Source of the DNA: Planctomycetota bacterium
Lineage (GTDB): Bacteria > Planctomycetota > JACQVX01
Length of the DNA stretch: 51,999 bases
Assembly: GCA_016209495.1 (NCBI GenBank)
Contig: JACQVX010000140.1
Location: 1 to 51,999 of the forward strand
Reading direction: 5' to 3'
Shown: piece by piece, positions 17,340-21,325 of the stretch
Position numbering within the stretch: position 1 is the stretch's first letter
How the letters are laid out: every line of letters starts with the position of its first letter
Made by a program: the position numbers and the translations under genes
The notes under the pieces: generated by a model
Databases searched by the model: none
What the model saw: the letters and a program-made list of their open reading frames with translations, nothing else
Told to the model about the DNA's origin: nothing

Positions 17340-19064
17340 TTGCTCGGTGGGGCGGCCCCGGCGGCTGCGCCGAACGGGACTGCCGCTGGCAATCCCTCCC
17401 GTCGGGCGCTCGTGGCGCCCGATGGAGGCGCGGCTCCCCCGATGCTTGTCAAGGATCTGGCCGTGTCCGCACTGCTCATCCGGGACAGCAGAGACGGGAA
17501 GACCAAGAGGATCCTCCTCAACAAGACCAAGCTCACCATTGGCAAGAAGGAGGGCAACGACCTTGTCCTCCCGCGCAAGAGCGTCTCGCGGGAGCACTGC
17601 GTGATCTTCTTCTATAACAACAAGTTCATCATCCGGGACCTCGGGAGCGCCAACGGGACCTTCGTCGGCGGCTCGCGCATTGAACGCGACACACCGCTTT
17701 CGGACGGGGCGACGGTGCGCATAGGCGAGTTCGACCTGGTCTTCCAGGCGGACGGCAAGGGCGACGAATCGGCCCTGGGACTCGCGGGGGAGAGGCCCGA
17801 GCAGGTCCCGCCGGAGATCAAGCGGAAGGTCCACGAACGGCTGATCCAGAACAAGACCATCAAGCAGATGGACCTGGACGCCGTGAGCGAGCAGGAGGCC
17901 AGGCTCACCACCACCCAGGTGGTGACCCAGGTGGTGAAGGAGCTGGCGGCGGAGATCCCGAGATGGGTCTCCCTGGAGAGGCTCTGCAAGGAGGTCGTGG
18001 ACGAGGCCCTGGGGCTGGGGCCGCTGGAGGAGCTCCTGGCGGACGAGTCGGTCACGGAGATCATGGTCAACAACTGGGACCGGGTCTATGTCGAGCGCAA
18101 CGGGAAGCTGGAGATTACCGGCGCCCGTTTCACGGACAACGACAACCTCTTGAATGTGATCCGGAGGATCATCTCCCCGGTGGGGCGGCGGGTGAACGAG
18201 CAGACGCCCATGGTGGACGCGCGGCTCAAGGACGGCTCCCGGGTGAACGCCATCATCCCCCCCCTCGCGGTGAGCGGCCCCTGCCTGACCATCCGCAAGT
18301 TCCCCAAGGAGCGGCTGAAGACCGAGGACCTGGTGGCCTTCGGGACCTTGACGCGGCGCATGGCGGACTTCCTGTCCCTGGTGGTGAGGCACCGCCAGAA
18401 CGTCCTCATCAGCGGCGGGACCGGGTCGGGCAAGACCACCCTGCTCAACGTCGTCACCGCCTTCATCCCCGTCGAGGAGCGGATCGTCACCGTGGAGGAC
18501 GTGAGTGAGCTTCAGCTCCCCCAGGATCACGTGGTCTCCCTGGAGGCCAAACCGCCGAACCTGGAGGGCCAGGGGGCCATCCCCATCCGCCAGCTGGTCA
18601 TCAACGCCCTACGCATGCGCCCGGACCGCATAGTGGTGGGGGAGTGCCGTGCCGGCGAGGCCATCGACATGTTGCAGGCCATGAACACGGGCCACGACGG
18701 TTCTCTCACCACGGTCCACTCCAACTCCCCCAGGGACTGCCTGGCCCGCCTAGAGACCCTGGTCCTCATGAGCGGCGTGGAGCTGCCATCGCGCGCCATC
18801 CGCGAGCAGATCTCCAGCGCCGTGAACTTCATCGTCCAGCAGGCGAGGCTTCCGGACGGGAGCCGCAAGGTGACGCACATCAGCGAGGTGGTGGGGATGG
18901 AGGGGGACGTCATCACCCTCCAGAACATCTACCAGTTCGTGCAGACGGGGGTGGATGCGGAGGGCCGCATCAAGGGGGGGCACAAGGCCACCGGGGTGGT
19001 GCCCAAGTTCGTGGAGGAATTGAAGCGCCGGGGGATACCGGTGGACATGGCGCTGTTCAGCTAG
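17340..19064 (+). CDS. tadA: TadA/CpaF-type secretion ATPase with N-terminal FHA domain
   Basis: Motor ATPase that powers Flp pilus assembly, here 574 residues with an added phosphothreonine-binding FHA domain. FHA (about residues 40-138) keeps IGKKEGNDLVL, SVSREHC and GSANGTFV, so the phosphopeptide site looks intact. The CpaF part follows (about 155-560): Walker A GGTGSGKTT at 359-367, Asp box VTVEDVSELQLP and Walker B/His box region MRPDRIVVGECRAGEAIDM, MNTGHDGSLTT. The annotated start is TTG at 17340; an ATG at 17442 just before the FHA domain is a fair alternative, since the intervening 34 residues are Ala/Gly/Pro-rich. The FHA fusion ties the motor to the Ser/Thr kinases encoded downstream. 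Confidence 0.95.
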   Translation: MLGGAAPAAAPNGTAAGNPSRRALVAPDGGAAPPMLVKDLAVSALLIRDSRDGKTKRILLNKTKLTIGKKEGNDLVLPRKSVSREHCVIFFYNNKFIIRDLGSANGTFVGGSRIERDTPLSDGATVRIGEFDLVFQADGKGDESALGLAGERPEQVPPEIKRKVHERLIQNKTIKQMDLDAVSEQEARLTTTQVVTQVVKELAAEIPRWVSLERLCKEVVDEALGLGPLEELLADESVTEIMVNNWDRVYVERNGKLEITGARFTDNDNLLNVIRRIISPVGRRVNEQTPMVDARLKDGSRVNAIIPPLAVSGPCLTIRKFPKERLKTEDLVAFGTLTRRMADFLSLVVRHRQNVLISGGTGSGKTTLLNVVTAFIPVEERIVTVEDVSELQLPQDHVVSLEAKPPNLEGQGAIPIRQLVINALRMRPDRIVVGECRAGEAIDMLQAMNTGHDGSLTTVHSNSPRDCLARLETLVLMSGVELPSRAIREQISSAVNFIVQQARLPDGSRKVTHISEVVGMEGDVITLQNIYQFVQTGVDAEGRIKGGHKATGVVPKFVEELKRRGIPVDMALFS

Positions 19065-20878: not shown

Positions 20879-20899
20879 GGCCCCCCGGGGCAAGGAGTC

Positions 20900-21050
20900 G
20901 TAACGAAACCACTGCGTCAACACCGAGGCCGAGCGAGAAGGTCGATGGCTAGGAGCGACGACGACGCGTGTCAATGGAAAGACACGCGGAGGCGGAGCGA
21001 CGACGCCAGCGGCCTTCGTAGCCGGCCGAATGTAGCAGTGGTTTCGTTAC
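20900..21050. repeat. Nested inverted-repeat element (MITE-like or structured RNA)
   Basis: Perfect 16-base inverted arms (20900-20915 and 21035-21050, GTAACGAAACCACTGC and complement) enclose about 120 bases. At the centre is a second hairpin of 8-base arms (20965-20972 and 20981-20988, CGCGTGTC and complement) with an 8-base loop, and flanking that a 12-base direct repeat GGAGCGACGACG (20952-20963 and 20994-21005). No coding capacity. Such a nested dyad is typical of non-autonomous mobile palindromes or of a folded RNA; it sits between the Tad operon and the FHA genes. Confidence 0.7.
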
Positions 21051-21325
21051 GGCGACTAAGGTGGTTTCGCACCGCGCCCGCGGGGTCGCACCGGGCGCCC
21101 ACCCACCCTGTGGCGAGCTTCGACGCGTGTGGTGACCCTCGACGTTTGCCGGGGTCCCGGAACGGGGCCAATCCCCTGGAAGTAGAAGGGTTGAGGGTCA
21201 TTCATGGGGGGCCACCACGGCAACGGGCTTGCGTCCTTCATCGAGCAGCGGACGTAGAGGGGAGACGGGGACCGGACCCATGGGCCTTGCCAATGGCCCG
21301 ACGGCTCCCCGAGGGAGACACGGCC
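21051..21325. other. Non-coding stretch before the FHA membrane protein gene
   Basis: No credible gene, promoter or repeat seen. An open frame on the plus strand continuing upstream of the FHA gene crosses the inverted-repeat element and has no family-like content, so it is not used. Confidence 0.5.

Follow-up and report, generated by a model that had tools for sequence, protein, structure and literature searches.

A mobile hairpin element family with a conserved core and exchangeable ends, widespread in Planctomycetota genomes

The palindrome between the T2SSF and FHA genes

The window, by which we mean the whole stretch of 51,999 nucleotides analysed here, is one contig (C103) of a 4.08-Mb Planctomycetota draft genome (G000) that comprises 291 contigs and is 86% complete. 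Genes for a T2SSE ATPase and two T2SSF proteins lie 5' of a long palindrome, which begins 15 nt after the last of them, a T2SSF (PF00482) gene, reaches its stop codon, and two FHA-domain genes lie downstream. The ATPase gene (17340-19064) is of Tad type and itself encodes an N-terminal FHA domain, with further FHA genes after it, a domain arrangement that suggests phospho-regulated secretion or pilus assembly.

A sequence-only reading had placed a nested inverted-repeat element at 20900-21050. The element is real, but it is larger than this: it occupies 20894-21056 of the + strand (163 bp), forms a single long interrupted hairpin with the ends GGAGTCG and GGCGAC, and is flanked by an imperfect 3-bp duplication, CAA on the left and TAA on the right. 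Its parts are as follows.

20894..21056, + strand: whole element, one interrupted hairpin (covariance model R1 match of 175.9 bits, the model having been trained on the window copy among others; fold; end positions fixed by comparison with 32 other own-genome copies)
20891..20893, no strand: left target-site copy CAA, imperfect duplication (sequence; anchored ends)
21057..21059, no strand: right target-site copy TAA (sequence; anchored ends)
20894..20915, + strand: left terminal arm, outer stem P1 (lineage-variable, yet complementarity to the right arm is kept)
21035..21056, + strand: right terminal arm, outer stem P1 (inverted-repeat match; covariation)
20921..20937, + strand: conserved core, left side, CACCGAGGCCGAGCGAG (invariant or near-invariant columns of alignment A1)
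21021..21032, + strand: conserved core, right side, GCCGGCCGAATG (invariant or near-invariant columns of alignment A1)
20937..20949, + strand: second stem, left side, partner of 21005-21017 (fold; covarying pairs)
21005..21017, + strand: second stem, right side (fold; covarying pairs)
20952..20964, + strand: purine-rich tandem G-A internal loops, left side, containing one 12-nt direct repeat (sequence; hairpin alignments)
20989..21004, + strand: purine-rich tandem G-A internal loops, right side, overlapping the other 12-nt direct repeat (sequence; hairpin alignments)
20965..20988, + strand: apical hairpin, 8-bp stem and 8-nt loop (sequence; fold)

The outer arms are perfect, as had been claimed, over 17 rather than 16 nt (20899-20915 and 21035-21051). 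The inner hairpin of 8 bp is present as described, with CGCGTGTC at 20965-20972 pairing with GACACGCG at 20981-20988, and so are the 12-nt direct repeats GGAGCGACGACG (20952-20963 and 20994-21005), which turn out to be both purine-rich sides of one stem.

The RNA fold of the + strand, at -98.3 kcal/mol, is far more stable than chance predicts: shuffled sequences average -56.9 (z -12.0), and none of 200 is as low. That of the - strand reaches -78.5 kcal/mol (z -7.1). The element is non-coding, as that reading also held: no call of a crude gene finder overlaps it, and the same program puts the start of the FHA gene 236 nt past the element, although a mechanical open reading frame from 20945 traverses it into the FHA gene. 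Across 4227 Rfam models the element scores above no gathering threshold, the only above-threshold match being a tRNA elsewhere in L172.

Copies across the phylum and their insertion sites

The palindrome is one copy of a mobile element family, usually about 160 bp long, that is widespread in Planctomycetota genomes. BLAST finds 44 matches to it in the draft genome to which it belongs; of 40 genomes taken as relatives, 5 have matches, its own included. A covariance model built from 38 chosen copies (alignment A1) detects the element (E <= 1e-4) in 77 of 392 Planctomycetota genomes, that is, its own and 76 others from 70 of 267 genera in all, and in 40 of 217 genomes when only those of good quality are counted; E-values in this survey are rough, and since at most seven candidates were scored per genome its copy numbers are lower bounds. 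The near-complete genome G154 has 167 terminal-repeat matches. The element is therefore neither a single copy nor unconserved.

An exact-pattern scan of named genomes returned 45 stretches. Those with the element's fold belong to Planctomycetota MAGs and to a single MAG that bears the label Candidatus Schekmanbacteria (JACPHN; L110, L111, L114, L121, L139 and others), which holds many copies with an arm sequence of their own; either the family occurs in more than one phylum or this MAG is mislabelled. Chance matches to the pattern in Burkholderiales (L124), Roseateles (L129), Humibacillus (L130) and Acidimicrobiales (L138) fail to fold as the element, and two in Planctomycetota records (L118, L128) were likewise dropped after folding. 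None of the dropped matches reaches E 0.05 with the covariance model, the best being L130 at 0.057, and in a control run over 21 sources including the window the window copy scored 5.6e-38 and the next, L093, 0.031, with no other below 0.03. The plasmid and phage collections gave no match to the element, and the single pattern match among viral contigs (L146) was rejected as lacking the hairpin. Half-matches in G036, examined as possible autonomous elements (L075, L077, L079, L082), end at contig ends.

Several copies depart from the usual form. The apical hairpin is absent from L027, L038 and L053 through an identical deletion, such as slippage between the 12-nt direct repeats is expected to produce, while L043, L051 and L057-L061 are length variants whose apex or 3' arm holds further hairpins, among them a 27-nt apical insertion in five of the seven G003 copies read. 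At L103:2409-2747 and L172:450-960, two or three copies stand in tandem or head to head, joined at short flanking sequences.

The element is mobile, with a TNA target-site duplication in most lineages and CTAG in one. Among 106 copies read in TNA-type lineages (a count that omits G154, G235, G328, G208, G289 and G019), TNA flanks 50 at both ends, and in 41 of the 50 the two trinucleotides agree, against 26.4 expected by within-genome shuffling and with 41 reached in 0 of 2000 shuffles; the other 56 are without TNA on both sides, partly through misplaced ends in G000. Because the ends of many G000 copies were misplaced in this count, the genome was redone with sequence-anchored ends: 40 sequences were aligned, and of the 33 with both ends readable 13 have identical flanking trinucleotides (shuffled 5.4, p 0.0006) and 20 do not. 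In G154, where the duplication is CTAG, excising the inner copy of a nested pair together with one CTAG yields a 159-nt copy that is 98.1% identical to an intact one. The suggestion of a non-autonomous mobile palindrome, made along with a call to look for further copies and target-site duplications, is strongly supported by the copies in its own and 76 further genomes, the TNA or CTAG duplications, this restored empty site and the ends shared with insertion sequences.

Gene interiors are avoided: with the crude gene finder, a gene call extends across 5 of 29 empty sites, compared with a fraction of 0.84-0.88 of control sites. In G000, 15 of the 29 readable empty sites abut stop codons (7 sense only, 4 antisense only, 4 both), a modest enrichment when set as 15 of 24 non-disrupting sites against 0.236 or 0.371, depending on the motif definition. 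The corresponding value in G154 is 7 of 23 against 0.289 for control CTAG sites, which is no enrichment and is explained by the target motif together with gene avoidance. Insertions in G000 often fall exactly on stop codons (for example L021, L024, L025 and L052), four of them at the overlapping stops of a convergent gene pair. Neither the window copy nor the other copies checked are followed by a consistent T-run.

Variable ends and a conserved, strand-specific core

The terminal arms look borrowed from insertion sequences. They vary by lineage, being GGAGTCG or GGACCCG in the window's own genome, GGGCCCGCGCAGAAAC in G003, GGGGCTGTGAGGAAAT in G036, GAGCGCCTAACAGAAT in G224, CAGCCTGTTGAAAAAG in G235 and TGTCCTGGATCAGAAA in G154, and in three cases they correspond to the termini of an IS5- or IS1182-type insertion sequence. 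The element of G235 starts with CTAG followed by CAGCCTGTTGAAAAAGTC, and an IS1182-type insertion sequence of the same genome with CTAG followed by CAGCCCGTTGAAAAAGTC; the transposase gene after the latter matches PF05598 above cut-off and, as a 275-aa piece, scores 151.7 bits with NF033551, under the 270-bit cut-off. The G224 element GAGCGCCTAACAGAATGG resembles the end of a complete 901-bp DUF4096 (IS5-type; PF13340) insertion sequence in G001, which has TAA followed by GAGCGCCTAACA at one end and the inverted end before TAA at the other. The G313 element GAGCCTATTTCAGTAG resembles an IS5-family insertion sequence in G003 with a TTA duplication, whose right end GAGCCTATCTCAGTAG reads inward from TTA, whose left end, slightly different, stands after another TTA, and whose transposase matches NF033580 above cut-off. 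One of these three links lies within the element's own genome (G235), and the other two are between genomes and extend over 12-16 nt. The window's own genome, an 86% complete draft broken at repeats, has no match to PF01797, PF01609, PF13340 or PF05598; in G154 no partner transposase could be linked, its sole PF01609 match having different ends and PF05598 giving none.

Arms and interiors also reassort. Each of two arm classes in the window's own genome is found with each of two interior classes, the four combinations numbering 3, 2, 9 and 15 copies, while a further 4 of the 33 copies are unassigned. L038 and L053 are hybrids whose arm class differs between the two sides. This reassortment and the hybrid arms fit the capture of a new end on one arm followed by arm-to-arm copying, which may be the mechanism.

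Unlike in an ordinary MITE, conservation is higher inside the element than at its ends. In an alignment of 30 loci, one per genome (A3), which was fitted to the covariance model and so leans towards structure, the 14 pairs of the outer stem have a mean identity of 44% and are nonetheless paired in 409 of 420 cells, compared with 63% identity in the unpaired inner columns. Over all 48 pairs, 95.3% of cells are paired and 44 pairs vary at both positions; covariation scores 0.789, against 0.193 when shuffled and at most 0.097 with partners slid. The core motifs CACCGAGGCCGAGCGAG and GCCGGCCGAATG are near-invariant in A1.

Mismatches within the hairpin differ between its strands. In the tandem G-A loops, which recur at regular intervals in the core, the purines are retained while the intervening pair flips between C-G and G-C, and G-A mismatches outnumber T-C in all 32 genomes compared, with the purines on the same strand. 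Isolated in-helix mismatches, counted as genome by column in 104 copies (23 genomes) whose orientation was set only from the core sequence, are G-T in 57 cases and A-C in 19 (p 1.5e-5; G-T is ahead in 16 genomes and behind in 2, with 5 ties), an excess suggesting selection on the fold of one strand; G000 taken alone has 10 against 8. When all mismatches are counted, loops included and with 3 of the G154 matches used, there is no G-T excess (15 genomes up, 14 down, 3 tied). Selection on spreading lineages, with near-neutral decay of resident copies, would explain this pattern. Covariation and strand asymmetry thus indicate that the fold of one strand seems to be selected, as RNA or as single-stranded DNA; the folded RNA raised by the sequence-only reading is supported in part, the two kinds of molecule being indistinguishable here.

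How the family may move and persist

We consider it probable (about 0.82) that these are phylum-wide, non-autonomous, MITE-like hairpins whose structured core is conserved while the ends can be exchanged, and that various DDE transposases mobilise them in trans. Like MITEs, they have terminal repeats matching insertion sequences (three cases, one in the same genome), TNA or CTAG duplications and dispersed non-coding copies. The DDE transposases of local insertion sequences would move the element in trans, and it would outlast changes of transposase by gaining new terminal arms.

Comparison with described systems places the family nearest to MITEs while setting it apart. For the IS1031 subgroup of the IS5 family, an excerpt of PMC12016507 gives a TNA preference and a 3-bp repeat. 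MITEs of this subgroup resemble the element in being non-coding and about 160 bp long, with terminal inverted repeats, a 3-bp TNA duplication and IS5-type ends; the element differs in that its interior is more conserved than its ends, that these ends vary by lineage, one being IS1182-like, and that it has a strand-specific, covarying fold. TIMEs, miniature elements derived from Tn3, have Tn3-type ends and longer duplications. They too are non-autonomous miniature inverted-repeat elements, and a conserved core is absent from their description in the available part of PMC4133298. 'Rhodopirellula-1', a structured-RNA candidate from Planctomycetes and Proteobacteria, appears without an Rfam number in a table row of PMC2864571; both are structured candidates in Planctomycetes, and the row neither shows nor excludes identity. 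That row apart, our literature search on Planctomycetes MITEs, palindromes, RNA motifs, IS5/IS1182 targets and MITE RNA structure found no description of the family.

That the element is a plain MITE with a functionless inner fold is unlikely, though not negligible; on this account template switching during replication corrects one arm against the other and so mimics covariation. The long inverted repeats and the near-equal in-helix counts in the window's own genome (10 and 8) speak for it, as do the one-arm hybrids L038 and L053 and the reassorted arms, which resemble the products of such exchange. Correction should, however, erase unpaired loops, yet the purine mismatches persist in 32 of 32 genomes while the pair between them flips; it should be strand-symmetric, yet G-T outnumbers A-C by 57 to 19; and it does not account for an inner sequence more conserved than the ends that face the transposase. 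We regard as improbable a structured RNA in the service of host genes, such as a stabiliser of mRNA 3' ends or a terminator, that transposition later spread: stop codons often adjoin the copies in G000, but the 15 such sites show no clear orientation bias, the fraction in G154 equals that of control CTAG sites and no consistent T-run follows the copies. For want of an orientation bias, a role as host regulator was dropped.

A long hairpin with one preferred strand and short flanking tetranucleotides also recalls single-stranded elements of the REP/RAYT or IS200/IS605 type, moved by a Y1 (HUH) transposase. Target duplications of 3-4 bp are not expected of Y1 transposition, but here they are present, and PF01797 has no match in the 86% complete own genome. 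REP elements measure 20-40 bp and carry a GTAG or CGTC tag according to PMC3733652; REP/BIME sequences with RAYT share with the element that they are interspersed palindromes outside genes, whereas the 163-bp element is several times the REP size, with neither tag on its own-genome ends and with target-site duplications. We therefore hold movement by a Y1 enzyme to be very improbable.

To return to MITE-like hairpins moved by DDE transposases, the lack of a clear orientation bias relative to neighbouring genes is consistent with a fold that acts while the element spreads; that the + strand fold would do so as an RNA transcribed from the element and not as single-stranded DNA, we put at about even odds. 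More tentatively, and with somewhat more doubt than conviction, we propose that a mobile structured nucleic acid persists phylum-wide by swapping its terminal repeats: the inherited unit would be the strand-specific folded core, as RNA or single-stranded DNA, and successive insertion-sequence families would be its interchangeable engines. A new end would be captured on one arm and then copied onto the other by template switching, which the hairpin enables, and the core would be kept because its fold would actively assist the element's spread, for instance through binding to a transposase or host protein.

MITEs are usually seen as internally deleted insertion sequences and are defined by their ends. 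The family described here works like a MITE but adds a conserved structured core and exchangeable ends; the conserved part is the interior and the ends are replaceable, so that a non-coding parasite has apparently survived changes of transposase throughout a phylum. This would make testable both the switching of engines by non-autonomous elements and a possible role of a folded RNA or single strand in DDE-type transposition.
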